Positions 11,773 to 51,228 of a stretch of 64,000 bases of DNA are shown here, in pieces. This stretch comes from Halobacterium sp. R2-5 (GTDB lineage: Archaea > Halobacteriota > Halobacteria > Halobacteriales > Halobacteriaceae), in assembly GCF_011734195.1 (NCBI RefSeq), contig NZ_JAANTH010000002.1, forward strand, positions 1,054,001 through 1,118,000, written 5' to 3'. The position numbers and the translations under genes were made by a program. Each line of letters starts with the position of its first letter. The stretch's first letter is position 1. The notes under the pieces are model-generated. The model ran no database searches, was not told the origin of the DNA, and saw only the letters and a list, made by a program, of their open reading frames with translations.

Positions 11773-11925
11773 CAGCCGTCGCTAGCGTGTTGGTCTGTTC
11801 AGACCGAGCGCCGGCACTGTGACGGCTGGATCGGCGAAATGGGGTGCGTGTTCAGCGAAGCCGTCCCTTTGGACGGTCCCGTCGGCTGGAGAGACTTTCC
11901 GGATGCATCACCTACGTTCGACCAC

Positions 11926-12771
11926 ATGTTCGACCAAGATGTCACCCCCGACGTTGTAGAGTTCGGGCCGGGGGACGCGGACCTCGCCGTGGTCTGCAAC
12001 GTGCACGGGGACGAACCGACCGGCGCCCGCGCGATTCACCGTATCCTCCGGTCGTCCCCCGAGTTCGAGCGGGGGGTCAAGTTCATCGTCGCCAACCCAC
12101 CGGCGTCCATCTCACATCGGCGCTTCCTCGACGTGGACATGAACAGGGTGTTCCCGGGCGACCCGGAAGCCGACGACCGCGAGCGACGCCTCGCCGCTCA
12201 ACTTCTGACGGAGACGGCCGACTGCGATACCATCTCCTTCCACACGACCCACGCGACCCACGAGCCGGTCGCGTTCGTCTCGGAGGGGAACTCTCGCTCG
12301 CTGGAGATCGTCTCACAGCTACCGATCACGTACGTCGTCAACGAGGCGTCGGTCGTCGACGGCTCGTTCTGTTCGACTGGCCACGTCGTCTCGATAGAGG
12401 CGGGGAAGGTCCAGCAACCGAACGCGGTCGCGAAAGCCGAGATGCTGATCCGGGCGTTCCTCGACAACGAGGGCGCGCTCTCGGAGGAGCCGCCGATGCA
12501 CGCGCCCGTGACGAACTACTTCGAGATCGACGACAGAGTCGAGAAGCCGTCCGGGGACGAATCGTACGAACTGCTCGCGCGGAACTTCGAGCGAGTCGAG
12601 GCGGGAGAAGCGTACGCGAAATCGAAGGAGGGGTTCCTCCTCGCCGACGAGCCGTTCGTTCCGGTCCTGATGTCGCAGTCGGGGTACGGCGAGATATTCG
12701 GCTACCGGGGACGGAAGGTCGGCGAGTCGGTCGAGGACGCGAAGACGGCGTGGCTCGACGACGAGACCTGA
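11926..12771 (+). CDS. Succinylglutamate desuccinylase / aspartoacylase family hydrolase
   Basis: A 281-residue zinc hydrolase of the M14-like AstE/ASPA family that removes acyl groups from N-acyl amino acids. The zinc motif H-G-D-E-P is near residue 24, the third ligand His in S-F-H-T-T-H-A-T-H near residue 105, and the catalytic Glu in S-I-E-A-G-K about residue 165. The open frame begins at 11839, but homology starts at the ATG at 11926 (M-F-D-Q-D-V-T-P-D). The extra upstream residues include two hairpin-forming stretches and look like leader. The acyl substrate is not known; DoeB, the classical N-acetyl-diaminobutyrate deacetylase, belongs to this family, which is relevant because an ectoine-hydrolase-like gene lies downstream. 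Confidence 0.82.
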   Translation: MFDQDVTPDVVEFGPGDADLAVVCNVHGDEPTGARAIHRILRSSPEFERGVKFIVANPPASISHRRFLDVDMNRVFPGDPEADDRERRLAAQLLTETADCDTISFHTTHATHEPVAFVSEGNSRSLEIVSQLPITYVVNEASVVDGSFCSTGHVVSIEAGKVQQPNAVAKAEMLIRAFLDNEGALSEEPPMHAPVTNYFEIDDRVEKPSGDESYELLARNFERVEAGEAYAKSKEGFLLADEPFVPVLMSQSGYGEIFGYRGRKVGESVEDAKTAWLDDET

Positions 12772-12806: not shown

Positions 12807-13607
12807 CTACTCCGCGGCGTCTGGCGGGTCGAGGCCGGCGAGCGCGTCCACGAGGTGCGTGATGTTCGCGACCGCGTCTTCGACCATCTCCGCGCCCTTC
12901 TCGCGGGTCGCGACCGTCGGGTCGCCGAGGTTGCCCGTGTGCGTGAGCGCGTTCATGCGCTCGGCGGACAGCGCCCAGCCGACGCGGTTGTCGCCGTACG
13001 CGTCGTAGTCGGTCAGCGGGAGCGCGTCGTCGGGCACGTCGACGGCCTCCGCGCGGTCCATGTCCACGAGCTCCGGGAACAGCTCCAGCATCAGGCTGGT
13101 CTCGAACTCGGAGGCGTGGAAGGAGACGTCGCTCGTGCGGACGGCCGTCGCGGCGTCCTCGAACACCGAAATCAGGGGGACGTGGAACGCCCGCAGCCCG
13201 TGCTCGGTGGTGAGCTCGCGGACGACCACGTCGAGTTCGGGGTCCTGTACGAGGTAGTGGCCGTTCACGAGCAGGACGTTCTCGACGCCCCACTCCGCCG
13301 CGGACGTGCAGACGTCGCGGACGTAGTGCTGGAACGTCTCGCTCTCGACGGTGAACGTCCCCGGTTTGAACGTGTGGTGGGGGCTGACGCCGTACCAGAC
13401 GGGGGGCGCGAGCAGGCAGCCCGTGCGCTCTGCGACGCGCTCGGCGATGGCCTCCGGCATGTAGACGTCCACGCCGAGGGGCATGTGGTGGCCGTGCTGC
13501 TCGGTGCTGCCGACCGGCAGGAGCATCGTCTGGGTCTCCTCGACGGCGGCCTCGACCTCCTGCCAGGTCATGTCCGCGAGCCGGCGGACGGCGTCGGCGT
13601 CTGCCAT
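12807..13607 (-). CDS. Creatininase-family amidohydrolase
   Basis: A 266-residue metal-dependent cyclic amide hydrolase. Motifs: G-S-T-E-Q-H-G-H-H-M-P-L-G-V-D (metal ligands Glu, His and Asp, about residues 33-45), V-N-G-H-Y-L-V-Q near residue 113, and S-E-F-E-T-S-L-M-L-E-L near 165. True creatinine amidohydrolases have N-G-H-Y-E-N here, while MftE/FAPy-deformylase relatives have N-G-H-G-G-N. This protein keeps the Tyr but replaces the following Glu metal ligand with Leu. It lies 3 bases downstream of the FAD oxidoreductase gene on the same strand and is probably co-transcribed with it. Creatinine or a related lactam is a possible substrate (inference). Confidence 0.83.
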   Translation of the reverse strand: MADADAVRRLADMTWQEVEAAVEETQTMLLPVGSTEQHGHHMPLGVDVYMPEAIAERVAERTGCLLAPPVWYGVSPHHTFKPGTFTVESETFQHYVRDVCTSAAEWGVENVLLVNGHYLVQDPELDVVVRELTTEHGLRAFHVPLISVFEDAATAVRTSDVSFHASEFETSLMLELFPELVDMDRAEAVDVPDDALPLTDYDAYGDNRVGWALSAERMNALTHTGNLGDPTVATREKGAEMVEDAVANITHLVDALAGLDPPDAAE

Positions 13608-13610
13608 CGC

Positions 13611-14813
13611 TCAGATGTTGTCGGCGGGCATCCCGTGGCCTGCGGGGTTCTCCTCGAAGCGGTCGAGCGCGAAGTAGTCGACGTCCACGAGGCCCGTATC
13701 CCCATCGACCACGAGGTCGCGGACGATGCGGCCGACCGCGGGCCCGTGCTTGAAGCCGTGGCCGGAGAACCCGCAGGCGAGATAGCAGCCGACGGGGCCG
13801 GCGTCGTCGATGACGAAGTCGTGGTCGGGCGTCGTGGAGTAGACGCCGCAGTACTGGCCCTGGATGCCGGCGTCCTCGAGGCCGGGCATCGTCTCCGTGA
13901 CGAGGTCCGTGAGCTCCAGCAGCGTCTCCTCGTCGGGCGTGTCGTCGTAGCTGTCGGGGTCGGTCTCCTCGGTGAGGTAGTGGGTGGCGACGAGGACGTT
14001 GTCCCCGAAGTCCGGGCGGAGGTACCACTCGCCGCCCGGCATGCTCGTCGTCGGCGTCAGGTCCGGGAACTCCTCGACGTAGTCGTCCGAGGGGTCGAGG
14101 ATGACGACCTGCTCGCGGGTCGGGGTAATCGGCACGTCCACGCCGACGTCCGCGGCGAGTTCGGGCGTCCACGGGCCGGCGGCGACGACGACGTCCTCGC
14201 ACTCGACGTAGCCGTTCTCGGTCTCGACGCCCGCGACCGCGCCGTCCTCGGTGTCGATGGATTCGACGCCGACGCCCGTGACGACCGTCGCGCCCTCCTC
14301 GGCCGCGCCACGCGCGAACCCGTTGGCTGCGTCCGTGCCGTCCGAGTACGCCGCGCTGTCGTCGCTGACCGCGAAGTCGTAGTCGTCGAGGCCGTCGTAC
14401 ATCGGGTACTGCTCGGGGAACTCCTCTGGCTCGACCCACGACACGGGGATGTCGCGCTCGGCGAGCACGTCGTAGCCGGCGGCCGCGTAGTCGCCGACCT
14501 CCGTGCCCTCCTCGCCGAAGCGCACGAGCGGGCTGCCGGCGTACGCGATGGGCTGGCCGGTCTCGTCCTCGAACGCCCGGAAGAACTCGTGGCTCCAGTG
14601 GGCCATGTCGGTGTAGATCTCGTCGTCGCCGTAGTGGTGGCGCAGAATCGCCGACGAGTCGCCCGTCGACCCCGAGCCGATGCTGTCGCGCTCGACGAGC
14701 GTCACGTCGCGGTCGCTGTCCGCCGCGAGGAAGTACGCCGCCGCGGCGCCCATGATGCCGCCGCCGACGACCACTACGTCCGTGCTGTCCGGCAGTGTCG
14801 GTCTCCCGCTCAT
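13611..14813 (-). CDS. FAD-dependent amine oxidoreductase (sarcosine oxidase-like, DAO family)
   Basis: A 400-residue flavoprotein of the D-amino-acid/sarcosine oxidase family. The FAD loop V-V-V-G-G-G-I-M-G-A-A-A-A-Y is at about residues 13-26. C-terminal motifs are Y-C-G-V-Y-S-T-T-P-D-H-D-F-V-I-D and A-C-G-F-S-G-H-G-F-K-H-G, as in sarcosine/dimethylglycine-type oxidases. The Cys before T-P-D is close to, but one residue off, the flavinylated Cys of monomeric sarcosine oxidase. It is first gene of an operon with the creatininase-like gene, with its own minus-strand TATA at 14831-14845. Likely role: oxidative N-demethylation or deamination of an amino acid. Confidence 0.86.
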   Translation of the reverse strand: MSGRPTLPDSTDVVVVGGGIMGAAAAYFLAADSDRDVTLVERDSIGSGSTGDSSAILRHHYGDDEIYTDMAHWSHEFFRAFEDETGQPIAYAGSPLVRFGEEGTEVGDYAAAGYDVLAERDIPVSWVEPEEFPEQYPMYDGLDDYDFAVSDDSAAYSDGTDAANGFARGAAEEGATVVTGVGVESIDTEDGAVAGVETENGYVECEDVVVAAGPWTPELAADVGVDVPITPTREQVVILDPSDDYVEEFPDLTPTTSMPGGEWYLRPDFGDNVLVATHYLTEETDPDSYDDTPDEETLLELTDLVTETMPGLEDAGIQGQYCGVYSTTPDHDFVIDDAGPVGCYLACGFSGHGFKHGPAVGRIVRDLVVDGDTGLVDVDYFALDRFEENPAGHGMPADNI

Positions 14814-14907: not shown

Positions 14908-15777
14908 TCACATGAAGTCGCTGATGCCGAAGAGGTACTCCATGACGAAGATGACGGTGAGCACGCCGGCCATCAGCAGCGTCGCGATGGCGGCCAGCGT
15001 CGCGGGCGCGGTGTTGTAGAACAGGCTGAACAACACCAGCGGCATCGTCGTCGTCTCCGACCCGGAGAGGAACAGGGAGATGATGTACTGGTTGAAGGAT
15101 AGAATGAACGCGAAGACGAACCCGCTCATCAGGCCGGGCTGAATCAGCGGCACCGTGACCCGGAGGTACGACTCCAGTTCGGTGGCGCCGAGGTTCTGCG
15201 CGGCCTCCTCCAGCGAGTGGTCGTAGTTCTGGAGGCTCGCGCCGATCGTCCGAATCGGGTACGGCAGCGTGAACATCACGTGGCCGACGAGCAGCGTCCA
15301 GAACGACAGCTCGATGGCAACGCCGAGGGCGGTGCCGATGCGGTTGATGAACAGCAGCAGCGACAGCCCGACGACGATCCACGGGTAGATGAGCGGCGAG
15401 ATGAGCACCGTCTCCAGGGTCGTCTGGTACTTGAAGTCGTACCGGACGATGGCGAACGCCGCGAGCGCGCCGAGCACCGTCGAGACGACGCCGGTGGCGA
15501 TCGCGAGCTCGAGGCTGGTGAGCAACGCCTCCTCGACGCCGAGGAAACCCAGTTGGCCCGGCAGCCCGGTGTAGTGGTCGAGCGTGAACCCCTGCGGCGG
15601 CCACGTCGCGTACGCGGACTCCTGGAAGGAGATGATGACGACGATGACCAGCGGCGCGAGCAGGAACAGGATGGTCCCGTACAGCAGCGCCTCGTAGCCG
15701 ACGGTGGTCGCCCGCTGGACCAGCCAGTCGACGCGCAGCGAGCGCGAGGAGTCGTCTGACGTCGCCATCTCAGACAC
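14908..15777 (-). CDS. ABC transporter permease, spermidine/putrescine (PotC) type
   Basis: A 289-residue inner-membrane permease with about six transmembrane helices and the cytoplasmic EAA loop (E-E-A-A-Q-N-L-G-A-T, about residue 192) that docks on the ATPase. It is the last gene of a four-gene importer operon (binding protein, ATPase, PotB-like, PotC-like) on the minus strand. Its start overlaps the end of the preceding permease gene by 8 bases. The family carries polyamines, and related members carry other small cationic or guanidino compounds or opines. Confidence 0.88.
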   Translation of the reverse strand: MSEMATSDDSSRSLRVDWLVQRATTVGYEALLYGTILFLLAPLVIVVIISFQESAYATWPPQGFTLDHYTGLPGQLGFLGVEEALLTSLELAIATGVVSTVLGALAAFAIVRYDFKYQTTLETVLISPLIYPWIVVGLSLLLFINRIGTALGVAIELSFWTLLVGHVMFTLPYPIRTIGASLQNYDHSLEEAAQNLGATELESYLRVTVPLIQPGLMSGFVFAFILSFNQYIISLFLSGSETTTMPLVLFSLFYNTAPATLAAIATLLMAGVLTVIFVMEYLFGISDFM

Positions 15778-16723
15778 CCCCCACGCCTTCCATCTGTTTG
15801 AGGACGCGCTGGTAGCCGACGATGACCAGCAGCGCGACCGCGACCAGTATCATCGACAGCGCGCTCGCGAACGGCCAGTTGCTCGTGGACGTGAACGTCT
15901 CCGTGATGACGACGGGGACGACCCGCACGCCGCCGCCGAGCAGGGCCGGCGTCACGTACGACGCCAGCGAGACGACGAACGTGATGAGCACGCCCGCGCT
16001 GATACCGGGGAGCGCGAGCGGCACGAGCACCCGCGCGAACACCGTGAAGCGGTTCGCGCCGAGGTTCTGTGCGGCCTCCTCCAGTTCCTTCGGGATGGTG
16101 TGCATCACGTTGATGATGGGGAACACCATGAACGGCAACATCACGTGCGAGAGCCCGATGATGATGCCCGTCTCGTTGAACAGCAGCTGGGGCGTGTTCC
16201 CCTGGGAGACGATTCCGAGCGCGACCAGCGTGGAGTTGATCACGCCGGACCCGTTCAGCAGGATGAACCAGCCGAACGAGCGCACGACCAGGTCGATGGT
16301 CAGCGGCGCGAGCGTCGCGATGACGATGAGCTTGCCCATCCAGCCGCCCTTCCGCACGGCGGCGTACGCGAGCGGGAAGCCGAGCGCGAAGTCGATGATC
16401 GTCACGGCGAGCGCGATCTTCACGGTGCGGATGAGCGTCTCCTGGTAGAGCGCGCTCGTGAACGCCCGCACGTAGTGCGCGAGCGTCACGCCCGCACCAA
16501 TCGCGCCCTGGTCGTAGGGGTTGAAGCTGTAGCTCAGCAGGATGAGCGTCGGGAATATCATCAGCACCGCGACGACGAGTAGCGTCGGGCCGATGAGCGC
16601 GTACTTCCCGAACCGGGTGTCGCTGTACTTCCGGAGCACGCCCGAGAGCCCCTCGTTGACGCGGCCGAGCGTCGACTCGGACTGGCCGCGGTTCACGCCC
16701 GACTCCGATTGTTTGCGTGCCAC
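15770..16723 (-). CDS. ABC transporter permease, PotB type
   Basis: A 317-residue permease with a cytoplasmic N-terminal tail of about 38 residues, about six transmembrane helices, and the EAA loop E-E-A-A-Q-N-L-G-A-N near residue 218. It forms the heterodimeric channel with the PotC-like protein. It starts 7 bases after the stop of the ATPase gene and overlaps the next permease gene by 8 bases, so all are expressed from one message. Confidence 0.88.
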   Translation of the reverse strand: MARKQSESGVNRGQSESTLGRVNEGLSGVLRKYSDTRFGKYALIGPTLLVVAVLMIFPTLILLSYSFNPYDQGAIGAGVTLAHYVRAFTSALYQETLIRTVKIALAVTIIDFALGFPLAYAAVRKGGWMGKLIVIATLAPLTIDLVVRSFGWFILLNGSGVINSTLVALGIVSQGNTPQLLFNETGIIIGLSHVMLPFMVFPIINVMHTIPKELEEAAQNLGANRFTVFARVLVPLALPGISAGVLITFVVSLASYVTPALLGGGVRVVPVVITETFTSTSNWPFASALSMILVAVALLVIVGYQRVLKQMEGVGGV

Positions 16724-16730
16724 GCGGGAA

Positions 16731-17828
16731 TCACCCGTGTGCGAGCCGCGTGTCCTCGATGCTCCACGCGAGCACGACGTCGTCGCCGGGCCCGTAGAGT
16801 GTCGTGGCGTGCTGGTTCGCGTCGTCGACGACGACCTCGCGGCCGCCGGAGTCGACGAAGTACCGGACCTTCGACCCGAGGAACAGCCGGCGTTCGATGC
16901 GGCCGGCGAGCGTGTTCAGCGAGTCGTCGCTGAACCCCGGCTCGCGGGCGTTCATCTTCTCCGGCCGGACGAAGACCGCACCCTCGCCGTCCGCCGGGAC
17001 GCCGGTCGTGTTCACGCCGATGTCGGTGTCCCCGACGGTGAGCACGACGCGGCCGTCGGCGGTCTCGCGGAGGTCGCCCTCGAGGAAGTTGGTGTCGCCG
17101 ATGAAGTCCGCGACGAACTCCGTGGCTGGCTCCTCGTACACCTCGATGGGGGGCGCGATCTGCTCGATCTGGCCCTCGTTCATCACCGCGATGCGGTCCG
17201 CGATGGTGAGCGCCTCCTCCTGGTTGTGGGTGACGTAGAGGGTGGTGATGCCGAGGTCTTTCTGGAGCTCCGTGAGCTCGACTTCGAGCTGGTCGCGGAG
17301 CTTCTTGTCGAGAGCGCCCAGCGGCTCGTCCATCAACAGCACTTCCGGCTGGATGGCGATGGCGCGTGCGGTCGCGACGCGCTGCTGCTGGCCGCCCGAG
17401 AGGTTCTTCGGGTTGCGGTCCGCGTACCCGCCGAGGTCGACCATCTCCAGCACCTCGCTGATGCGGTCCTGGATCTCGTCCTTCGGGAAGTCCTGTCGCT
17501 TGAGCCCGAACGCGATGTTCTCCCCGACGGTCATGTGGGGGAACAGCGCGTAGTCCTGGAACACCATCCCCGTGTCGCGCTTGTGCGTCGGGACGTGCGT
17601 GACGTCGTCGCCCGCGAGCGAGATGGTGCCCGACGTGGGCTTCTCGAAGCCGGCGAGCATCCGCAGCGTCGTCGTCTTCCCCGACCCGGACGGGCCGAGC
17701 AGCGCGAGGAGCTCGCCGTCCTCGACCTCGAAGGAGACGTCGTCGACCGCCGTCAGGTCGCCGTACTCCTTGGTGACGCCGTTGTACTCGATGGCGGCTC
17801 CGGTACCAGTGCCGTCGGGGGGTTCCAT
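16731..17828 (-). CDS. ABC transporter ATP-binding protein, PotA type
   Basis: A 365-residue ATPase of the spermidine/iron/opine importer group. Walker A G-P-S-G-S-G-K-T-T is near residue 46, the signature L-S-G-G-Q-Q-Q-R near 144 and Walker B E-V-L-L-M-D-E-P near 165. A C-terminal TOBE-type regulatory domain follows (about 250-365, containing V-F-V-R-P-E-K-M). The ATG at 17828 is preferred; a TTG four codons earlier is possible. It lies 27 bases downstream of its binding-protein gene. Confidence 0.9.
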   Translation of the reverse strand: MEPPDGTGTGAAIEYNGVTKEYGDLTAVDDVSFEVEDGELLALLGPSGSGKTTTLRMLAGFEKPTSGTISLAGDDVTHVPTHKRDTGMVFQDYALFPHMTVGENIAFGLKRQDFPKDEIQDRISEVLEMVDLGGYADRNPKNLSGGQQQRVATARAIAIQPEVLLMDEPLGALDKKLRDQLEVELTELQKDLGITTLYVTHNQEEALTIADRIAVMNEGQIEQIAPPIEVYEEPATEFVADFIGDTNFLEGDLRETADGRVVLTVGDTDIGVNTTGVPADGEGAVFVRPEKMNAREPGFSDDSLNTLAGRIERRLFLGSKVRYFVDSGGREVVVDDANQHATTLYGPGDDVVLAWSIEDTRLAHG

Positions 17829-17855
17829 GGTGGGTGTCAAAGCTGTGTGGAGAGG

Positions 17856-19055
17856 TCAGAAGATGGAGTTGTACCGCTCGGACCAGTCGCTGCGGTTCTC
17901 CCAGATGTACTGGAAGTCCGGGAACGCGAGCTGGTCGAACTCGTCGGACGTGGTCGCGCCGAACTCCTCGGCGGCGGGCGCGACGGTGGCGTCCTCGTGG
18001 GTGACACCGCAGCCCATCTGCTCGGAGGCCGTCTCCTGGAACGACGGGGAGAGGCACTCGTTGGCGTAGACGAGCGCGGCGTCCATGTTGTCGGCGTTCC
18101 GCGTGACGGCGACCGACTCCGCGAACGCGATGCCGGCCGGGTCGAGGCGGAACAGCGGGTCGATGGGCTGGTCGTTCTGGAACATGTCGAAGACCATGTA
18201 GTCCCAGAACAGGTTCAGCGTGTCGACGTTCCCGCTGGCGAGCTGCTGTTTCGCGGACGCGACGCCGCCGTACTCGGAGCTGACGTTCGGCGCGAAGTTC
18301 TCCTCGAGCCAGTCGAAGCCGGCGTCGACGTCGAGTTGGGAGTTGTACGGCTCGCCGGTGGCGATGGCGGACGCCATCAGCAGGAGGTAGGGGCCGCCGG
18401 ACCACGAGAACGGGACGACCGCCGTGGAGTTCGAGTTCTGCATCACTTCCGCGTGCGAGGACGGCGTCGAGTCCCACATCTGGGTGTTGATGACGGGCAG
18501 CACTTCGCCGACCTCCCAGGAGGCGCCGGCGCCGTCGTAGTGCACGAACTTGTCGTAGATCCCCTCCACGTTCGGGACCATGTCCGTGTGGTCCGTGAGC
18601 GGTTCGAGCCACTCCTCGCGGGACGCCCGCTCGATGCCGATGACGTCCGGAATGAGGACGTCCGGCGGGCTCTCCGGGTTCGCCTCCACCTGGGTCAGCT
18701 GCTCGGTGGTGACCGCGGTCGTGGTGTTGATGTTGAGGTTGTACTTCTCCTCGACGCGCGGGATGAGGTGCTCCTGGTGGACGGTGGAGATGGCGCCGAC
18801 GTTGAGCATGACGTCGAGCTCCGCGCCGCCGAAGTCCATCGCGTCGCCGTCGTCTTCGGTGGTCCCGTCGCCGCCGTTCCCGCCGCTGTCCTCGGTCGTT
18901 GTGTCGCCGTTCCCGTCGCCGTCGCCGGCGCCGTCACCGTCGCCGCCACCGGTGAGACACCCCGAGAGGGTGGCCATCCCGATGGCGCTGGCGCCACCGA
19001 CTTTGAGGAACGTCCGACGGTCGCTACTGTCGAGACCGGAATCACTGTCTGGCAT
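17856..19055 (-). CDS. Extracellular solute-binding protein, PotD type (Tat lipoprotein)
   Basis: A 399-residue binding protein. The Tat motif D-R-R-T-F-L-K is at residues 12-18 and the lipobox L-S-G-C has Cys33 as the lipidation site. A Gly/Asp/Asn-rich linker of about 40 residues precedes the two-lobed binding domain. The protein captures the substrate outside the cell and delivers it to the permeases encoded downstream. It is first in the importer operon, with a strong TATA on the minus strand at 19084-19096. The ligand cannot be read from sequence; polyamine, guanidino compound or betaine are candidates given the ureohydrolase next door. Confidence 0.88.
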   Translation of the reverse strand: MPDSDSGLDSSDRRTFLKVGGASAIGMATLSGCLTGGGDGDGAGDGDGNGDTTTEDSGGNGGDGTTEDDGDAMDFGGAELDVMLNVGAISTVHQEHLIPRVEEKYNLNINTTTAVTTEQLTQVEANPESPPDVLIPDVIGIERASREEWLEPLTDHTDMVPNVEGIYDKFVHYDGAGASWEVGEVLPVINTQMWDSTPSSHAEVMQNSNSTAVVPFSWSGGPYLLLMASAIATGEPYNSQLDVDAGFDWLEENFAPNVSSEYGGVASAKQQLASGNVDTLNLFWDYMVFDMFQNDQPIDPLFRLDPAGIAFAESVAVTRNADNMDAALVYANECLSPSFQETASEQMGCGVTHEDATVAPAAEEFGATTSDEFDQLAFPDFQYIWENRSDWSERYNSIF

Positions 19056-19212: not shown

Positions 19213-20214
19213 CTACCGGGAGGCGTCCTTGCGCGCGCCGAGGAACTGCGTCGCGACGGCCGCGCCGATGGCGGTCGTCGCGCCAGTCGAGTCCAGCGGC
19301 GGCGCGACCTCCATCAGGTCGCCGCCGCGGACGAGGTCGTGGCGGCCGAGCTGGTAGACGAGTTCGAGCAGCTGCCAGGGCTGTAGTCCGCCCGGACTCG
19401 GCGCGCACGTTCCCGCCGCGTCCCCGGCTTCGAGCACGTCGATGTCCACGGAGACGAACACCGCGTCCGTGCCGTCGGTCGCCGCGTCGAGTGCGCGCTC
19501 GGCGGCAGCGTCGACGCCGTCCTTGTGGACGTCGCGCGCGGAGATGACTTCCGCGCCGACGTCGCGCACCCAGTCGACGTAGTACTTCGAGTTGTGCCAG
19601 CCCGAGAGCCCGAGCTCCACGAAGTTCTCGCCGTCGAGCTGACCGCTGTCGTCTTCGAGTAGCCGCCGGAACGGCGTCCCCGAGGAGAGCTCGCCGCCGT
19701 GGGAGTGGCGGACGTCGTGGTGTGCGTCGACGTTGACGACGCCGACCTGGCCGTCGACGGCGTTCATCATCGCCTTCGCCGTCGGGTACGTCAGCGAGTG
19801 GTCGCCGCCGATACTGAACGGCACGACGCCGTCCTCGGTGACGGCGGTGAGCACGCGCTCGACGCGCTCGTGAGTCGGCAGCACCTCCGTGTGGACGACG
19901 TCCACGTCGCCGTAGTCGACGACGTCGATGCCCTCGCTGATGTCCACGTCGATTTCGGGGTTGTAGCAGGTGCCGTGCGTCATGTCCTCGCGGACGCCTT
20001 CTGGGCCCAGTCGGGAGCCTCGCGGTCCCGCCACGCAGGCCGTGTCGAAGGGAATGCCGACGAGCCCGACGTCGGCGCTGTCGGCCTCGCGGGCGTCGGT
20101 GATGATCTCGCCGACGTTCGTGTCGTATTCGTCCTCGACGCCGATACTGTACCCCGGATAGGGGGTGAGCAGGTCGGCTACCTCTGGGGGGACGACCCCG
20201 TCAGAACGTGCCAT
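19213..20214 (-). CDS. Ureohydrolase (agmatinase/arginase family)
   Basis: A 333-residue binuclear-manganese hydrolase that releases urea from a guanidino compound (or formamide from formimidoylglutamate). Manganese motifs: G-G-D-H-S near residue 140, N-V-D-A-H-H-D-V near 167, and S-V-D-I-D-V-L-E near 253. In the last motif the usual D-P after D-x-D-x-x is E-A. The start at 20214 (M-A-R-S-D-G) is chosen; the longer frame upstream is Ala/Arg-rich without family similarity. It lies upstream of the Pot-type importer operon on the same strand, 157 bases away. Agmatine, guanidinobutyrate or another guanidino acid are possible substrates. Confidence 0.87.
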   Translation of the reverse strand: MARSDGVVPPEVADLLTPYPGYSIGVEDEYDTNVGEIITDAREADSADVGLVGIPFDTACVAGPRGSRLGPEGVREDMTHGTCYNPEIDVDISEGIDVVDYGDVDVVHTEVLPTHERVERVLTAVTEDGVVPFSIGGDHSLTYPTAKAMMNAVDGQVGVVNVDAHHDVRHSHGGELSSGTPFRRLLEDDSGQLDGENFVELGLSGWHNSKYYVDWVRDVGAEVISARDVHKDGVDAAAERALDAATDGTDAVFVSVDIDVLEAGDAAGTCAPSPGGLQPWQLLELVYQLGRHDLVRGGDLMEVAPPLDSTGATTAIGAAVATQFLGARKDASR

Positions 20215-21225: not shown

Positions 21226-22500
21226 CTAAAGCCCGCCGTCGGCCACGCGCTCGATGGATTTGGCCAATACGTCCACGGCGACGGGGAGCGAGCGCTCGTC
21301 CACGTCGAACGTCGGCGTGTGGTGCGCGCCCGGGTGGTCAGTGCCGACGATTGCGTACGTCGCCAGCCCGCCCTGCTCCTGCACCGCTTCCATCAGGAAC
21401 GTGGCGTCCTCGCTGGCGCCGAAGTCCGCGTGCTTCAGCACGCTGTCCACGCGGTCGTCGCCGTCCGCGACGTCGGCGACGAGCGACGCCAGCGCGGGGT
21501 CGCTGTCCGCGCGCGGCGACTCGCTCACCACGTCGAAGTCCACCGTGCAGCCGTGCATCCCCGCGGCGCTCTCGAAGATTCGCTCCAGCTCGTCGCGGGC
21601 GTACGCCATCAGTTCGGTCGTCTCGCCGCGCGCCTCCGCGAGCAGGTTCGCGCGCTCGGCGATCACGTTGCTGGACGTCCCGCCCTCGATCCGCCCGACG
21701 TTCACGCGGGTCATCCCGTCGGCGTGCCGCGGGATTCCGTACGCGTTCTGGATGGCCGTCGCTGCGGCCTGAATCGCGTTCCGACCCTCGTTGGGCGCCT
21801 TCCCGGCGTGCGCGGACTCGCCCCTGAATGTGGCTTCCACGTGGCACATCGCGAGCGGCTTCCTGATGCCGCCGACCACCTCGCCCGTGGGGTGGCCGAG
21901 CCCGAGGTGGACCGCGAACAGGTAGTCGATACCCTCGACGTGCTCGCTCTCGGCCATCGGCTTCCCGCCGCCCGAGGCTTCCTCCGCGGGCTGGAAGAAC
22001 ACGGTCAGCGTCCCCGCGAAGTCGCTTTCTTTGACGGCTTCGACGACGCCGACGCCGATGGTCATGTGGCCGTCGTGGCCGCACGCGTGCATCGACTCGC
22101 CGGTCTCCGAGCGGAACCCTTCTCGGACTGGCGCGTGGCTGTCGCTCTCCGACTCCTCGATGAACAGCCCGTCGATGTCCACGCGCAGGCCGACGTGCGG
22201 GCCGTCGCCGCAGTCCAGGCGCGCGACGAGGCCCGTGTTACCCCCCGCTAATCGCTCCAGCACGGACTCGTCCACTCCCGCCTCGCGGGCGCGCTCGAAC
22301 CAGTCCGCGAGGTCGTCGTCGTCGGGGACGGCCATCCGTTCCTCGGTCGCCAGCGCGTCTGGGCCGACGTGGAGCTCGTCCACACCGACGGCTTCGAGTT
22401 CCTCGACGAGCCGGCAGGTCGTCCGGAACTCACGCCACGCTGGCTCGGGGAACCGGTGGAGGTCGCGTCTGAGCGCGCGCAGCCGCTCGGCGTCAGGCAT
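21226..22500 (-). CDS. M20 amidohydrolase (AbgA-like; candidate N-acetyl-diaminobutyrate deacetylase)
   Basis: A 424-residue M20D-type metallohydrolase. Motifs: [12 protein letters not shown] at the N-terminus, H-A-C-G-H-D-G-H-M near residue 138, F-Q-P-A-E-E-A near 170, and H-H-T-P-T-F-D-V-D near 405. An insertion between residues about 50 and 95 before G-L-V-A-R-L is as in AbgA-type hydrolases. It removes acyl or aroyl groups from amino acids. Its ATG lies inside the 3' end of the aminotransferase gene (8-base overlap), so the two are co-transcribed and probably act in sequence. With the divergent ectoine-hydrolase-like gene, N-acetyl-2,4-diaminobutyrate is a reasonable substrate (inference). 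Confidence 0.85.
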
Positions 22501-23863
22501 GGCCGTCCGCGGTCGCCTCGATGGCGTCCGCGATGATCTCCGTGCCGACCTCGGCCTGCTCCTGGGTGAGCACGAGCGGCGGGAGCAGCCGCAGGACGTT
22601 GCTGTACTGGCCCGCCGTCCACACGAGGACGCCGTGCTCGTAGCAGTACTTCTGGATCGCCTCCACGCGGTCGTCGTCGGGTTCCCCGTGCTCGTCGACG
22701 AACTCCGCGCCGACGAACAGGCCCTTCCCGCGGACCTCCCCGAGCCCCGGGTCGCCGTCGCCCGCGTCCCGCAGGCGACCGCGGATGTACTCGCCGACCT
22801 CCGTCGCGTGGTCGAGGAGGTCGTGGTCCTGGATGTACTCGATGGCGCGCAGGCCGCCGACCATCGCGGGGACGTGGCCGCGGTACGTGCCCGCGTGGTC
22901 GCCCGGCCCCCACGTGTCGAGGTCCTCGCGGTACATCGTGCCCGAGAGCGGCTGGCCGTTCCCGCCGAGCGCCTTCGCGGACGTCATGATGTCCGGCGAG
23001 ACGTCGAAGTGGTCGCAGCCCCACCACTCGCCGGTGCGGCCGAGGCCGACCTGGATCTCGTCGAACATCAGCGGCAGGTCGTTCTCGTCGGCGATGTCCC
23101 GCAGCCCCGAGAGGAACCCCTCCGGCGGGACGACGACGCCGCCCTCGCCCTGGATCGGCTCGACGAAGATGCCCGCGGGGTCGGAGAGGCCGCCGTACGG
23201 CTCCTCGACGATGGCCCGCACCTCTTCGAGCGCGCGCTCGACGGACGCCTCGGGGTCGCGGTCCTCCTGGAACGGGTACGGGAACGGCGCGTGCACGACG
23301 TCAGGGAGCAGCGGCGCGTACGGCTTCTTGAACTTCTTGTTCGACGTGATGCTCATCGCGCCCGACGTGGCGCCGTGGTAGGAGTTCCGGAACGCGAGCA
23401 GCCCGCTGCCGCCCGTGTTGTACTTCGCGAGCTTGATGGACGCCTCGACGGCGTCGCTGCCCGTCGGCCCGCCGAAGACGACGCGGTTGTTGCCCGCGAG
23501 GCCGTCGGGCGCGATCTCGTCGAGCTTGTCGATGAGGTCCATGCGGGGCTGGGTCGGGAAGTCGACGGCGTGCGTGAGCTTGTCGATCTGCTCGTGGACG
23601 GCGTCGTTGACGTAGGGGTTCGCGTGGCCGACGTTGTAGACGCCGATGCCCGCGAAGAAGTCCAGATAGACGTTGCCGTCGGCGTCCTTCAGCGTCGCGC
23701 CCTTCCCCTCCGCGAACGCGAGCGGGATGTTGTCCGGGTACGCGACCGCGCTGCTGTCGACGTCGACCTGCTTCTCCAGCAGTTTCCGGGACTGCGGCCC
23801 GGGGACCTCGTCGACGGACGGCTCCTGTGCGAAGTGCAGTTCGTGGATAGGCGGTCCTGCCAT
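22493..23863 (-). CDS. Class III aminotransferase (diaminobutyrate/omega-amino acid type)
   Basis: A 456-residue PLP enzyme of the acetylornithine/4-aminobutyrate aminotransferase fold. Motifs: [18 protein letters not shown] near residue 115, S-Y-H-G-A-T-S-G-A near 140, [12 protein letters not shown] near 262, and the PLP lysine in S-A-K-A-L-G-G near 293. The segment with D-A-V-E-A-x-I-K-L followed by K-K-x-x-A-P-L-L and P-Y-P resembles 2,4-diaminobutyrate:2-oxoglutarate aminotransferases. The start at 23863 (M-A-G-P-P-I) matches a TATA at 23886-23896. It is first in an operon with the M20 gene and divergent from the M24 gene. Confidence 0.85.
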
Positions 23864-23885
23864 ATCTGCGCTCACACAGTACGTC

Positions 23886-23939
23886 CACAAATAGCTTGGT
23901 AACGACAATCACGGCGGGCCCGCGGGCAAAGTTTATGCG
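23886..23939. promoter_or_regulatory. Divergent promoter pair between aminotransferase and M24 genes
   Basis: A minus-strand TATA (CTATTTGT, about 23887-23894) precedes the aminotransferase ATG at 23863. A plus-strand TATA (AAAGTTTATGC, about 23928-23938) precedes the M24 ATG at 23968. The two cores are only about 40 bases apart, so both units could be controlled from a common site in 23895-23927. Confidence 0.5.
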
Positions 23940-23967
23940 AACAGTCCGCGAGATTCGAGTGAGACAG

Positions 23968-25146
23968 ATGAGCGAGCTAGCTCCGTTCCCGACCAGCGAG
24001 TACACACGACGTGTCGAGCGGACCCGCGAGCGGATGCGCGAGGCGGGTCTCGACGCCGTCCTCGTCACCGACCCGGCGAACATGAACTACCTCACGGGCT
24101 ACGAGTCGTGGTCGTTCTACGTCCACCAGGGCGTGCTCGTCACGCTCGACCACGACCCCGTGTGGGTGGGCCGCGAGATGGACGCCAAGTCCGCGGAGGT
24201 GACGACGTGGATGGACGACGAGCACGTGCTCTCGTACACGGACGATTACGTCCAGTCCCCCCACGACAAGCACCCGATGGACTACGTCGCCGCCGTCATC
24301 GAGGAGTACGGTTACGACGACCGTACACTCGGTGTGGAGATGGACGCGTACTACTACACGGCGCGCTCGCACGCTCGGCTCACCGACCAGCTCCCCGAGG
24401 CCGACGTGCAGGACGCGACGCTGCTCGTGAACCAAGTACGCCTGAAGAAGTCCGACGCGGAACTCGACTACATGCGGCAGGCCGCGGAGCTCGCGGAGAC
24501 GGGGATGCAGGCCGCCGTCGACACCATCGCGGAGGGCGTCCGCGAGTCCGACGCCGCGGCCGCCATCTACGAGGGCCTCATCGGCGGCACCGAGGAGTTC
24601 GGCGGCGACTACCCCGCTATCGTCCCGCTGATGCCCTCCGGGGACTACACGGGCACCCCGCACCTCTCGTGGTCGGACCGCGAGTTCGAGGAGGGTGACC
24701 CCGTCATCGTGGAGCTCGCGGGCTGCAAGCACCGCTACCACTGCCCGATGGCGCGCACGCTCACCGTCGGCGAGCCCTCCCCGGAGATGGCCGAGACCGC
24801 CGAAGTCGTCATCGAGGGCCTCGAAACCACGCTCGACCGGATTCAGCCCGGGATGACCGCGGCCGAGGCCGAAGCCGTCTGGAGCGAGTCCATCGCGAAG
24901 CACGGCATCGAGAAGGATTCGCGGCTCGGCTACTCCACGGGCGTCGGCTACCCGCCGGACTGGGGCGAGCACACGGTCAGCCTGCGGCCCGAGGACGACA
25001 CCGTGCTCGAACCCGGGATGACGTTCCACGTGATTCCCGGCATCTGGTTCGACGACTTCGGCGTCGAGATCAGCGAGACCATCCACATCACGGAGAACGG
25101 CGCGGAGACGCTCGCGGACTTCGGCCGCGACCTCTTCGTCGTCTAG
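23968..25146 (+). CDS. doeA: M24-family ectoine-hydrolase-like enzyme
   Basis: A 392-residue pita-bread (creatinase/prolidase fold) enzyme. Stretches that recall ectoine hydrolase DoeA/EutD are V-T-D-P-A-N-M-N-Y-L-T-G-Y near residue 36, G-G-D-Y-P-A-I-V-P-L near 213, E-L-A-G-C-K-H-R-Y-H-C-P near 251, and Y-P-P-D-W-G-E-H near 331 followed by S-L-R-P. In metal-dependent aminopeptidases of this family, Asp residues occupy the positions taken here by Glu and Cys in that E-L-A-G-C-K-H-R-Y-H-C segment, so it is not a standard Xaa-Pro peptidase. DoeA opens the ectoine ring to N-acetyl-diaminobutyrate. Creatinase is the main alternative. The start at 23968 fits the TATA and begins the N-terminal domain. 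Confidence 0.72.
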   Translation: MSELAPFPTSEYTRRVERTRERMREAGLDAVLVTDPANMNYLTGYESWSFYVHQGVLVTLDHDPVWVGREMDAKSAEVTTWMDDEHVLSYTDDYVQSPHDKHPMDYVAAVIEEYGYDDRTLGVEMDAYYYTARSHARLTDQLPEADVQDATLLVNQVRLKKSDAELDYMRQAAELAETGMQAAVDTIAEGVRESDAAAAIYEGLIGGTEEFGGDYPAIVPLMPSGDYTGTPHLSWSDREFEEGDPVIVELAGCKHRYHCPMARTLTVGEPSPEMAETAEVVIEGLETTLDRIQPGMTAAEAEAVWSESIAKHGIEKDSRLGYSTGVGYPPDWGEHTVSLRPEDDTVLEPGMTFHVIPGIWFDDFGVEISETIHITENGAETLADFGRDLFVV

Positions 25147-26105
25147 GGGCGCAACACGACGTTTTCGAGGGCCGCGCCGGACTCCAGCGCGTCGTAGTTG
25201 TGCGCGAGGATGTCCGCGAGGCGGTCCCAGTGCTTCGGCGTGTGGCCGCCCGTGTGCGGCGTGATGAGCGCGTTCTCCAGCGTCCAGAGCACGTGGTCCT
25301 CGGGCAGGGGCTCGGGGTCGGTGACGTCGAGGGCGACGCCGCGCAGGCTCTCCGTCTGGAGGGCGTCCACGATGGCGTCGGTGTCGACAATCGGCCCGCG
25401 CGCCGTGTTCACGACGACCGCGTGCGGGGGAAGCGTCGCGATCTCCGCCTCGGCAATCAGCCCGCGCGTGAGGTCGGTGAGCGGGCACGCGACGACGAGG
25501 TAGTCGGTCCGTGCGAGCGCGTCGTGGAACGCGCGGTCCTCGAACCCGATGACCTCGTCCGTGGGGCCGCCCTTCTCGGGCGTGTACCGCACGCCGATGG
25601 TGTCAACCTCGAAGCCCTGGAGGCGCTGAGCGAGCGCCTGCCCGATGGAGCCGAGGCCGACGATGGTGACCGTCGAGTCCGTCAGCTCGTAGGACTGGAA
25701 GTGCCGCCACTCGCGGTGCTGCTTGCGCCGCCATCCCTCGTGGAGGTTCCGGGCGAACGCGAGGATGTTCCCGATTGCCTGCTCGGCGATGCCGGGCGCG
25801 TGAATCCCGCCCGCGTTCGTGACCGTGACGCCCGCCGCCTCCAGCGCCTCGTTGGGGAGGTGGCCGGTGCCGGCGAACGCGCAGGCGAACAGCTCCAGTT
25901 CTCCGGCGGCGTCCAGAACGTCCTCGTCGATGTCGACGCCCGTGACGACTGGCGCATTCTCGACGAGCTCGCGCTCCTCGTGGGGCGTGCGGGCGTGCCG
26001 GACGTCCGCGTCCGGGAGGCGCTCGCGGATGGCGTCGGCGTACTCGGCCATCCCGAGGCCCTCGGTGCCTTCGCGCAACACGACCACGTCGGGCGCGTCA
26101 CTCAT
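25143..26105 (-). CDS. D-isomer-specific 2-hydroxyacid dehydrogenase
   Basis: A 320-residue NAD(P)-dependent 2-hydroxyacid dehydrogenase. The cofactor motif I-V-G-L-G-S-I-G-Q-A-L is near residue 147. Catalytic residues lie in V-N-T-A-R-G-P-I-V-D, L-D-V-T-D-P-E-P-L and I-T-P-H-T-G-G-H, the last two giving it the flavour of the phosphoglycerate/erythronate or CtBP-like subgroups. It overlaps the preceding aminotransferase gene by 8 bases, so the pair is co-transcribed. A transaminase plus a dehydrogenase suggests amino acid to 2-oxo acid to 2-hydroxy acid conversion (inference). Convergent with the M24 gene. Confidence 0.86.
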   Translation of the reverse strand: MSDAPDVVVLREGTEGLGMAEYADAIRERLPDADVRHARTPHEERELVENAPVVTGVDIDEDVLDAAGELELFACAFAGTGHLPNEALEAAGVTVTNAGGIHAPGIAEQAIGNILAFARNLHEGWRRKQHREWRHFQSYELTDSTVTIVGLGSIGQALAQRLQGFEVDTIGVRYTPEKGGPTDEVIGFEDRAFHDALARTDYLVVACPLTDLTRGLIAEAEIATLPPHAVVVNTARGPIVDTDAIVDALQTESLRGVALDVTDPEPLPEDHVLWTLENALITPHTGGHTPKHWDRLADILAHNYDALESGAALENVVLRP

Positions 26106-27429
26106 CGTCGACCTCCGCGACGGCCTCGTTCAGCAGCGACGCGCCGAGGTCGACCTCTCGCTCGGTGACGTCCAGCGGCGGGAGCAGGCGCAGCGTCTTG
26201 TGCCCGCAGCCGAGCGTGAGCAGCCCGCGGTCTAAGGCCGCCGCGACCACGTCGTTCCGGCGCTCCCTGGTGTCGAAGTCGACGGCGACGAGCAGCCCGA
26301 GGTTCCGGACGTCCTCGACGCACGCGTGGTCGGCGTCGACGAGCCGGTCGGCGAGCTGGCCGCCGCGTACCTCGGCGTTCTCCATGAGGTCGTACTCCTC
26401 GATGGCTTCGAGCGTGAACACGCCCTGCATCGCGGAGACGATGTCGCCGCCGCCCCACGTCGAGCCTAAGCGATTCTTCTCCTCGGGGAACAGCTCCGAC
26501 TTCCCGACCGTTGCACCGACCCTGAGGGCCTTCGCGGACGTGATGAAGTCCGGCTCGAAGGGGTAGTGGTCCGAGGCCCACATCGACCCGGAGCGCCCGA
26601 CGCCGGTCTGAATCTCGTCGACGATGAGCGGGATGTCGTACTCCTCGGAGACGCGCCCGACCTCGCGGGCGAAGTCCTCGTTCGGGAAGCGGTAGCCGCC
26701 GACGCCCTGAATCGGTTCGAGCACGAGGAACGCCACCTCGCGCGGGTCGATGTGGCCGTTCGGGCCGAGCATCGCTTCGAGCCGGGACTCGTCGCCCGCC
26801 CAGAAGCCGCAGGTGCAGTCGCCGTCGCACGCGCAGAACGGCACCTCGCGGACGCTCGCGATCTCGGGGTACTTCCGGGTGTAGACGCTGCCCGAGCGCG
26901 TCAGCGACAGCGTGCCGAGCGTGCGGCCGTGGAACGCGCCCGTGAACGTGATGCCGTACTTCGGGGCCTCGCAGGCGTCGTAGGCCGCCTTCATCGCGTT
27001 CTCGATGGCCTCCGCGCCGGAGTTCGAGAGGAAGACGGTGTCGAGGCCGTACTGGCTCGACACCTCGGTGAGCTTCTGCATGAGCTGTGTCGACCCCGGG
27101 AACTCCGGGTCGTCGACCGTGCCGCTCCCGAAGTAGAAGTCCTGACCTGCGATCTTCAGCGGGTCGACGAGGTCGAACTCCCGGAGCTCGTCCATGATTT
27201 TGGGGTTGTTGTACCCGAGCGGCGCGGCGCCGATGTGGCACGTGAAGTCCATCAGCACGTTCCCGTCGAGGTCCGTGACGAACGGGCCCTCGGCGTCGGC
27301 GGTGACGTCCCAGACGAACTCGTGGGAGTGTTCGCTCGGCGCGGCGACCTCGCGGTGGGCGGCGATCCACTCGCGGGCCGCCTCGCCGGACGGTTCTGTG
27401 ACTGTCGGCTCGGCTGTCTCCCGGTCCAT
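26098..27429 (-). CDS. Class III aminotransferase (archaeal lysine/omega-aminotransferase or racemase type)
   Basis: A 443-residue PLP enzyme. Motifs: S-N-S-G-A-E-A-I-E-N-A-M-K-A-A near residue 138, F-H-G-R-T-L-G-T-L-S near 166, V-D-E-I-Q-T-G-V-G-R near 270, and the PLP lysine in T-S-A-K-A-L-R near 300. A Cys-rich insert (F-C-A-C-D-G-D-C-T-C, about 199-208) is unusual for the fold and may bind metal or an Fe-S cluster, or simply be a loop. The fold includes archaeal amino acid racemases, so the reaction could be racemisation. Leaderless promoter (TATA at 27450-27460). Divergent from an IclR gene that probably controls it. Confidence 0.83.
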   Translation of the reverse strand: MDRETAEPTVTEPSGEAAREWIAAHREVAAPSEHSHEFVWDVTADAEGPFVTDLDGNVLMDFTCHIGAAPLGYNNPKIMDELREFDLVDPLKIAGQDFYFGSGTVDDPEFPGSTQLMQKLTEVSSQYGLDTVFLSNSGAEAIENAMKAAYDACEAPKYGITFTGAFHGRTLGTLSLTRSGSVYTRKYPEIASVREVPFCACDGDCTCGFWAGDESRLEAMLGPNGHIDPREVAFLVLEPIQGVGGYRFPNEDFAREVGRVSEEYDIPLIVDEIQTGVGRSGSMWASDHYPFEPDFITSAKALRVGATVGKSELFPEEKNRLGSTWGGGDIVSAMQGVFTLEAIEEYDLMENAEVRGGQLADRLVDADHACVEDVRNLGLLVAVDFDTRERRNDVVAAALDRGLLTLGCGHKTLRLLPPLDVTEREVDLGASLLNEAVAEVDDE

Positions 27430-27555: not shown

Positions 27556-28350
27556 ATGGCAACGGACGACACGGAGCGGCGGACGATAACGTCGGTGGAC
27601 CGCGCCATCGGCGTCCTCGAGGAGCTCCGCCGCCTCGACGGCGCGACGCTCTCGGAGCTGGCCGACGAAGTCGAGCTCTCGAAGGGCGCGCTCCACACCC
27701 ACCTCGCGACGCTGCGCGAGCACGGGTTCGTCGAGCACCGCGGGGACAGCTACGCGCTCGGCCAGCAGTTCCTCACGTTCGGCGAGTACGTCCGGAACAG
27801 CCGGCCGCTGTACCGCGCCGCGAAGAGCGAGGTCGACGAGCTCGCGATGAAGACCGGGGAGTGCGTCCACCTCCACACCGAGGAGAACGGCATGGAGTCG
27901 CCGCTGTACGAGTCGTTCGGCGAGCGAGCGGTCGGCCGCGAACTCTTCATGAAGAACCGCGAGCAGATGGGACGGCACCTCCACTACTCGGCGGTCGGGA
28001 AGGCCATCCTCTCGGAGTTCGACGAGGACGAGCTAGACGCGCTACTCGACCAGCACGGGCTGCCGGAACGGACTCGCCACACGATCACCGACCGCGAGGA
28101 GTTCGAGGCGGAACTCGAACGCGTTCGCGAGCGCGGCTACGCCGTCAACGACGAGGAGGACCTGCTCGGGATTCGCGCCGTCGGCAGCCCCATCGTGGGT
28201 CCGGACGGCGAGGTGCTGGGCGGACTCAGCATCTCCGCGCCCGCGAGCCGGATGGAGGGCGAGCGGTTCACCGAGGAGCTTCCGAGAATGGTCAAGGAGT
28301 ACGCGAACATCATCGAGGTCAACCTCCAGACCGGCGACGGCTACGCCTGA
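27556..28350 (+). CDS. IclR-family transcriptional regulator
   Basis: A 264-residue regulator. An N-terminal winged helix (about residues 8-70: T-L-S-E-L-A-D-E-V-E-L-S-K-G-A-L-H-T-H) binds DNA. A C-terminal IclR effector domain (about 85-258, with G-K-A-I-L-S near 142 and a G-G-L-S-I-S-A-P-A-S-R core near 223) binds a small ligand. It is transcribed divergently from the class III aminotransferase/2-hydroxyacid dehydrogenase operon and is probably its local regulator. Effector unknown. Confidence 0.9.
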   Translation: MATDDTERRTITSVDRAIGVLEELRRLDGATLSELADEVELSKGALHTHLATLREHGFVEHRGDSYALGQQFLTFGEYVRNSRPLYRAAKSEVDELAMKTGECVHLHTEENGMESPLYESFGERAVGRELFMKNREQMGRHLHYSAVGKAILSEFDEDELDALLDQHGLPERTRHTITDREEFEAELERVRERGYAVNDEEDLLGIRAVGSPIVGPDGEVLGGLSISAPASRMEGERFTEELPRMVKEYANIIEVNLQTGDGYA

Positions 28351-51100: not shown

Positions 51101-51228
51101 CGCGCTTCCAGGTCCGCGACGAGGTCCGGCCGCTCGACGTCGCCGCTGACGTAGTCGTAGTCCGACCGCTCGTCGGCCGCCGGAGGCGTTACCTCGCTCC
51201 CCGGCGCCCCGTGTTCGTTGGATGCCAT
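48193..51228 (-). CDS. Fused FAD-linked 2-hydroxyacid dehydrogenase and Fe-S subunit (GlcD-GlcF / D-lactate type)
   Basis: A 1011-residue fusion. An N-terminal FAD domain (about 60-280: P-R-G-G-G-T-S-L-A-G-Q near residue 98) is followed by a FAD_oxidase_C domain (about 290-530, with S-G-E-H-G-D-G-R near 510). The C-terminal half carries C-H-G-C-G-G-C and C-V-G-C-K-G-C-A-R-D-C-P (about 600-690) and a CCG motif D-S-T-C-C-G-M-A-G-S-F-G near 930. It would oxidise D-lactate or glycolate and pass electrons to the respiratory chain. The start at 51228 drops a 22-residue extension with no support. It complements the LUD-type system upstream. Confidence 0.9.
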   Translation of the reverse strand: MASNEHGAPGSEVTPPAADERSDYDYVSGDVERPDLVADLEARVDGDVRFDTYTRQMYATDASAYEVTPIGVVFPADTDDVAAVVEYCADNEIPVLPRGGGTSLAGQAVNEAVVLEFARYMDGIESVDPGAREAHVQAGAVLEELNERLAPHDLKFAPDPAAGNRSVVAGAIGNNSTGAHSLKYGKTDAYVEECEVVLSDGSTATLGEMDVDELRERADADADDLLPRIYAGVVSVIDDHGDEVEERFPDMKRNVSGYNFDRLVDEARDGTVNLARLLAGSEGTLAVITEATVSLETVPETKSVALLTYESVVDAVTDVQHVLEHDPAAVELIDDTLIDLASETAEFSDVVALLPDGTRAALLVEFYAEDDEDGREKTADLVEDRVGDSDDHFAFDALEAHDDAERATYWKLRKSGLPILLGRTSDAKHISFIEDCAIPPEHLPEFVTRFQEILEDNDTFASFYAHAGPGVLHVRPLVNTKSETDLAAMEDIADRVTDMVVEFGGSVSGEHGDGRARTQWNRKLYGDQLWGAFRDLKTAFDPDWLLNPGQVCGDVSMTENLRFDPEYDFDAGLDPELNWENENGFQGMVELCHGCGGCRTEQETGGGVMCPTYRAADEEVTSTRGRANMLRQSMSGDLPDDPTSDEFVDEVLDLCVGCKGCARDCPSEVDMAKLKAEVVHERHQEHGASFRDKLFANVDALAKLGSATAPVSNLLPELPGARTIMEKTVGIASERTLPTFERETLQDWFDARGGSAVSAADAERKAVLFPDTYTNYAHPEIGRAAVEVLEAAGVHVDLADRTDSGRPAHSKGFLDAAREAAEANVDALEPRVAEGWDVVLVEPSDAVMFQSDYLDLLSGASAEAVAANTYGVCEYLDRFQLDDGVDWSAPDASLSYHGHCHQKATKKDHHAVGVLRRAGYATDAVDSTCCGMAGSFGYEAEHHAMSTSIGDILVDQLDDSDGELAVAPGASCRTQLGDMLDEEQRDAADIVPEDRDSPPTPVELLAAAVQN

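Follow-up and report, generated by a model that had tools for sequence, protein, structure and literature searches.

In the textbook route of ectoine breakdown, EutD/DoeA, EutE/DoeB, a transaminase and a semialdehyde dehydrogenase act in turn to yield aspartate (PMC5924519; PMC8739950). In 2018, ectoine consumers were viewed as confined to Proteobacteria (PMC5924519), and the precise activities of EutABC have been stated as unknown, with the hydroxyectoine route unresolved in bacteria (PMC8739950). Boas Lichty et al. (2026) presented, without biochemical proof, putative ectoine clusters in Bacillota, Thermodesulfobacteriota and Halobacteria, including provisionally more than 100 archaeal EutD matches of over 55% identity near aminopeptidase, aminotransferase and BCCT genes, so that in the main text of that paper haloarchaeal ectoine clusters are already published as a prediction (PMC13188858). 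Here we describe a locus in Halobacterium sp. R2-5, lying in a window (the whole stretch of DNA analyzed) of 64,000 nucleotides from a 2.98 Mb Halobacteria genome. Five genes at 21226-27429 encode an M20 amidohydrolase, a class III aminotransferase (AT1), an M24-fold protein, a D-2-hydroxyacid dehydrogenase (HDH) and a second class III aminotransferase (AT2). We consider it very probable that they form a haloarchaeal ectoine catabolism module, in which the M24 protein would open the ring, the M20 enzyme deacetylate and AT1 transaminate, with HDH and AT2 as obligate members.

By sequence and modeled structure, the M24-fold protein (P0003; 23968-25146, plus strand; 392 amino acids, ATG at 23968, stop at 25146) falls within the ectoine-hydrolase clade of DoeA/EutD, and activity on ectoine is predicted for it. 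It scores 456.5 bits with the NCBIfam ectoine hydrolase model TIGR02993, compared to 269.8 with an alternative DoeA model and 129.3 with PepQ. Among the sequences of solved structures, it gives 386 bits with Halomonas elongata DoeA, 117.6 with prolidase and 69 with creatinase, and it is 46% identical to DoeA (6TWK/6YO9) over the full length. An AlphaFold model (predicted local distance difference test, pLDDT, 87) superposes on DoeA 6YO9 with a Z-score of 50.1 (1.8 Å over 387 residues), as against 40.7 for creatinase and 39.7 for prolidase. Alignment to 6TWK and the prolidase 1PV9 shows that it lacks four of the five prolidase metal ligands, a loss identical to that in DoeA. At the position of DoeA Glu-255, which we take to be catalytic, it keeps a glutamate (E249), along with the other invariant or near-invariant residues of the clade (SFYVxQ, GGDYP, RYHxP and YPPDWGE). 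In a tree, the protein is nested in the DoeA clade, which also contains the H. elongata enzyme and bacterial homologs, away from prolidases and from the two well-placed M24 outgroups; the tree was built by a quick method without creatinases, carries only Shimodaira-Hasegawa-like approximate likelihood-ratio test (SH-aLRT) support, and is used for clade membership alone. Its outgroups are three M24 proteins from the same genome on long branches, two of them partial and one of these misplaced, and its root is weak. The protein is also 55-57% identical to several Bacillaceae DoeA, which may be set beside the criterion of PMC13188858 (EutD sharing over 55% identity with one from Bacillus), that paper's exact query not being among the sequences compared. 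These comparisons bear out the original prediction, made from the letters of the window alone, that the M24 protein is ectoine-hydrolase-like; a grouping with prolidases or creatinases appeared in neither sequence, tree nor structure. Because its score lies under the curated TIGR02993 cut-off, we call the protein DoeA-like, or a member of the DoeA clade, rather than a curated DoeA.

The same comparisons bear on another explanation, in which the M24 protein is a creatinase or prolidase that, with neighboring genes, processes guanidino compounds resembling creatinine. The window does contain genes for a creatininase-family protein (12807-13607), an amine oxidase (13611-14813) and a ureohydrolase (19213-20214), and the M24 protein has its fold in common with creatinase, but its sequence score with creatinase is far exceeded by that with DoeA, and the creatininase-family gene is itself under the creatininase cut-off (139 vs 235 bits). 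Moreover, the latter gene has a counterpart at a single further DoeA locus (L039, same genus), whereas M20, HDH, AT1 and AT2 recur across families. A creatinase/creatininase module was rejected on scores, structure and the lack of recurrent linkage, and we assign it next to no probability.

The M24 gene is divergent from an operon of AT1 (22493-23863, minus strand; 456 amino acids, ATG at 23863, stop at 22493; Aminotran_3) and the M20 gene (P0002; 21226-22500, minus strand; 424 amino acids), which overlap by 8 nucleotides. These three genes and their layout are as first described, but the limit then drawn at 25146 overlooked two contiguous genes and the module comprises at least five. HDH (25143-26105, minus strand; Pfam 2-Hacid_dh/2-Hacid_dh_C) and AT2 (26098-27429, minus strand; Aminotran_3) form one operon with an 8-nucleotide overlap, convergent with the M24 gene and overlapping it by 4 nucleotides. 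The acidic protein composition and high third-position GC content (GC3) of the M20, AT1 and M24 genes are usual for genuine haloarchaeal genes.

A DoeA-like match above 415 bits was found in 144 of 391 Halobacteria genomes, the remainder being separated by a clean gap at about 1e-30 or weaker, and its presence is patchy inside genera. Linkage of the module genes is conserved. In a set of 48 DoeA loci from haloarchaea, each spanning at most 20 kb, the M20 ortholog and HDH are each found at 39, including 36 divergent HDH/M20 pairs, followed by an EutB-like dehydratase (31), AT2 (28), a BCCT transporter (25), AT1 (21) and RidA (12). Co-occurrence of the five genes is near-perfect in a set of 116 whole Halobacteria genomes, 37 with DoeA and 79 without. 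Orthologs of M20, HDH and AT2 (the last at 623 bits or more) are present in all 37 DoeA-positive genomes and in 2, 6 and 3 of the DoeA-negative genomes, respectively, while AT1 is present in 36 of 37 and the EutB-like dehydratase in 26 of 37, neither occurring in any DoeA-negative genome. Fisher p values for M20, AT1, HDH and AT2 range from about 1e-24 to 1e-29, ignoring relatedness, and the identity and bit thresholds separating orthologs from paralogs were picked after the bimodal scores had been seen. Within seven genera that include both DoeA-positive and DoeA-negative species, M20 and HDH track DoeA in 43 of 43 genomes, AT1 in 42 and AT2 in 41. Separately, some Halobacteria carry a second, divergent DoeA paralog (51-54%; L086-L088) with IclR neighbors and, in two loci, a BCCT gene. 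The FAD (flavin adenine dinucleotide) amine oxidase at 13611-14813 (minus strand) of our window is 55-57% identical to genes just downstream of this paralog in G328, G297 and G247.

The M20 protein exceeds the cut-off of the general amidohydrolase model TIGR01891 (254.8 vs 153.75 bits), its dinuclear-metal motifs are intact, and its closest solved relative is the AbgA-type 3io1 (280 bits, 36% identity, Z-score 40.5). A tree groups it with HDH-adjacent M20 proteins (SH-aLRT 96) and separates it from its own paralogs C1:747836 and C3:14463, so we rejected its assignment as a general M20 paralog. DoeA-linked M20 proteins are set apart from these paralogs by an SESPRxDS motif. A bacterial M20-type 'DoeB2', mentioned in the original prediction, proved not to be a match, the protein scoring 111.8 bits with NCBI's DoeB2 model (NF038260) against a cut-off of 550, and this identity was likewise rejected. 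At 70 bacterial DoeA loci, an AstE-type DoeB is found in 7, an M20 gene in 42, and both in none; the 21 with neither are uninformative, some loci being short contigs. The bacterial-locus M20 proteins represent another subfamily (25-30% identity), and AstE-type DoeB was absent at the haloarchaeal DoeA loci examined. Because of this complementary pattern, which is our main argument and a genomic one, M20 enzymes appear to perform the DoeB step outside Proteobacteria. The proposal that an operonic M20 enzyme takes the place of AstE-type DoeB as N-alpha-acetyl-diaminobutyrate deacetylase thus gains backing from both context and phyletic profile. As a side observation, a second M20 subtype (62-64% identical to P0002) lies near BCCT in clusters L060, L063, L068, L072, L096 and L097, and some haloarchaea thus carry two DoeA-linked M20 genes.

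Alternatively, an AstE-family enzyme might be the deacetylase and the M20 enzyme have another job. Three AstE-family genes come into question (11839-12771, C1:1509141 and C2:67117), two of them scoring about 100 bits on the DoeB model TIGR02994. The first is the AstE-like gene that had been noticed near 11926; it is genuine (Pfam AstE_AspA_cat, 57 bits), but its candidacy as DoeB was rejected, since neither it nor the M20 protein matches TIGR02994 and it has no counterpart in the 48 DoeA loci. The other two are unlinked to the module and reach 103 (the best match in the genome) and 98 bits, against a cut-off of 402.7. Given also the mutual exclusion of M20 and AstE-type DoeB at DoeA loci, we consider an AstE deacetylase very improbable.

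For the substrates and reactions of the ectoine module, and for its aldehyde-oxidizing enzyme and importer, we infer the following. Hydrolytic opening of the ectoine ring by the DoeA-like enzyme would give N-alpha-acetyl-2,4-diaminobutyrate, from which the M20 amidohydrolase would take off the acetyl group, substituting for AstE-type DoeB. AT1 would transfer an amino group of diaminobutyrate to 2-oxoglutarate, producing an aldehyde, aspartate semialdehyde, that an aldehyde oxidoreductase could then oxidize. The first three textbook steps are matched by M24, M20 and AT1 in the order originally envisaged (ring opening, deacetylation, transamination). The DoeD role of 2,4-diaminobutyrate transaminase is proposed for AT1 from its context, and the phyletic profile likewise backs the earlier assignment of this class III aminotransferase to the pathway; its best NCBIfam match is PRK05769 (407 bits), with diaminobutyrate (DABA)-transaminase subfamilies at 376, 332 and 324 bits. 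HDH and AT2, both obligate members, would work on a 2-oxo acid derived from diaminobutyrate. Their presence is as obligate as that of M20, also in genomes without EutB, and for this reason ectoine-derived material itself is probably what they act on.

Several observations weigh against this assignment. The M24 protein misses the TIGR02993 equivalog cut-off (456.5 vs 613 bits), and its substrate may have shifted; no match in the 391 Halobacteria genomes reaches this cut-off, and two Bacillota DoeA homologs that we scanned, at 508-523 bits, are likewise under it. AT1 is under every DABA-transaminase cut-off (324.5 vs 401.6 for TIGR00709; 293.6 vs 552.2 for TIGR02407; 375.7 vs 671 for PRK06938), HDH and AT2 have no step in the textbook route, and no DoeC-type aldehyde dehydrogenase (ALDH) is adjacent to the module, the nearest ALDH (46073-47581) being just 34% identical to the enzyme of a Bacillota cluster. 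EnuR/AsnC was not among the genes scanned, a set short of the whole genome, IclR genes being present instead. Lastly, no Ehu/Ueh/Tea transporter could be assigned, the search for Ueh/Tea not having been genome-wide.

Some of these points would suit a shifted substrate, in which a different cyclic amidine or N-acyl diamino acid, and not ectoine, is what the DoeA-like enzyme acts on and the module breaks down. The M24 score and the obligate presence of two genes that the textbook route does not need are both in its favor, as is our finding of EutC near no haloarchaeal DoeA. Set against these are the conserved DoeA-clade residues of the M24 protein, the confinement of the EutB-like dehydratase to DoeA-positive genomes, and a DoeA cluster from Bacillota that shares the M20/HDH/EutB/RidA set and whose EutB exceeds its curated cut-off (422 vs 413 bits). 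Ectoine is, moreover, abundant in brines. We regard a shifted substrate as distinctly unlikely, and ectoine as the probable substrate.

The aldehyde product of the proposed ectoine route would be oxidized by an ALDH or by an aldehyde ferredoxin oxidoreductase (AOR) encoded at 5812-7479 (plus strand), a tentative candidate and possible DoeC replacement. The AOR is 77-86% identical to the products of genes adjoining DoeA in five other loci and AT1 in further genomes. Its standing as a universal module member is not supported, since three DoeA-positive genomes (G003, G039 and G031) lack an AOR at this level. An EutB-dependent hydroxyectoine route in Halobacterium sp. R2-5 was rejected, as an EutB ortholog is lacking (best match 50%).

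From enzyme classes and gene context, we speculate that HDH and AT2 might form a second, reductive branch by which ectoine carbon enters the tricarboxylic acid (TCA) cycle via malate/oxaloacetate, not aspartate, although we think this rather unlikely. In such a branch, one aminotransferase would act at C2 of diaminobutyrate, removing the amino group there to give 4-amino-2-oxobutyrate, which EutB, where present, could also yield from hydroxy-diaminobutyrate. HDH would reduce this compound to D-4-amino-2-hydroxybutyrate, the other aminotransferase would convert that to malate semialdehyde, and an aldehyde oxidoreductase would produce D-malate, to be oxidized by an FAD D-2-hydroxyacid dehydrogenase of the 48193-51228 type. 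The gene for this FAD/Fe-S enzyme (YdiJ-like; 48193-51228, minus strand) lies 22 kb from HDH in the window, and at 15 DoeA loci of haloarchaea, genes for proteins 63-71% identical to it occur in the vicinity of HDH. Two Oceanobacillus DoeA clusters (L117, 19802-20896; L118, 12460-13533) have a tartrate/D-malate-type dehydrogenase beside HDH, M20 and EutB. Cluster L117 additionally carries a D-amino-acid transaminase and an alanine racemase.

A Pot-type ATP-binding cassette (ABC) transporter in the window (14908-19055, minus strand; two permeases, ATPase and binding protein) is a tentative candidate for importing ectoine in the absence of BCCT. This genome has no ortholog of the BCCT transporter seen in other haloarchaeal clusters, its best BCCT match being 28%. 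An ortholog of the Pot-type cluster is found immediately upstream of the DoeA gene of a sister genome (G039, locus L042; 67-76% identity), and others lie beside DoeA in G380 and G308 (37-60%). The window's ABC ATPase scores 176 bits with the EhuA model, under the cut-off of 345.4.

A candidate regulator of the module is the IclR-family gene at 27556-28350 (plus strand; IclR_C, HTH_IclR), divergent from the AT2-HDH operon. Of 46 DoeA loci, 11 have an IclR-family gene close by, and counterparts of this one, 77% and 57% identical, are found at loci L039 and L042, respectively. Between AT1 and the M24 gene, a divergent promoter region (23886-23937) contains two TATA-like cores, CTATTTGTGG on the minus strand near 23886-23895 and TTTATG at 23932-23937, spaced by about 43 bases, close to the 40 or so first reported. 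Two congeners retain both cores, with about 19 more bases between them, so a fixed spacing was rejected. Elsewhere in the window, a cis-3-hydroxy-L-proline dehydratase gene (9639-10742, minus strand; NF043002, 504.4 bits, cut-off 500) is apparently unconnected to ectoine.

Ectoine is a major osmolyte of brine bacteria, while most haloarchaea rely on salt-in osmoadaptation. The presence of a module for its catabolism in 144 of the 391 Halobacteria genomes sampled would thus imply a substantial route of solute cross-feeding. More specifically, the data give a testable assignment of the gene replacing DoeB outside Proteobacteria. An 'ectB' without ectA/ectC has been reported in Haloarcula and Natrinema (PMC12029414), and these genes may be catabolic transaminases of the AT1/AT2 type.

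The R2-5 locus is of the kind described in PMC13188858, with an EutD homolog, an amidohydrolase/aminopeptidase and an aminotransferase. That paper reports BCCT in Halobacteria and no EutE in Bacillota; the R2-5 genome is without a BCCT ortholog. Relative to the main texts of published work, the apparent novelty lies in the complementarity of DoeB and M20, in the almost perfect co-occurrence of the module genes, and in recognizing that HDH and AT2 are obligate; the main text of PMC13188858 neither names M20 as a DoeB replacement nor reports co-occurrence of HDH and AT2. Compared to H. elongata DoeA (6TWJ/6TWK/6YO9), the M24 protein is alike in full-length identity, fold, metal-ligand loss and family motifs, but it is under the equivalog cut-off, sits on an archaeal/Bacillota-like branch and has M20, not AstE, as its partner. 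DoeB2 (NF038260) is likewise an M20 amidohydrolase found at DoeA, whereas our M20 protein is nearest to AbgA-like 3io1 and belongs to a different subfamily from the Bacillota M20 (25-30% identity). AbgA, a p-aminobenzoyl-glutamate hydrolase subunit, is kin to it within M20, but the context here points to ectoine breakdown, not folate catabolite use. In both the bacterial doe/eut operon (doeABXCD; eutABCDE-asnC-ssd-atf) and the haloarchaeal module, hydrolase, deacetylase and class III transaminase functions are clustered, and an EutB-like dehydratase is common to many haloarchaea as well. Unlike the bacterial operon, the haloarchaeal module has IclR nearby in place of EnuR/AsnC, BCCT or a Pot-type ABC transporter in place of Ehu/Ueh/Tea, and, among its enzymes, an M20 amidohydrolase, two class III aminotransferases and a D-2-hydroxyacid dehydrogenase.

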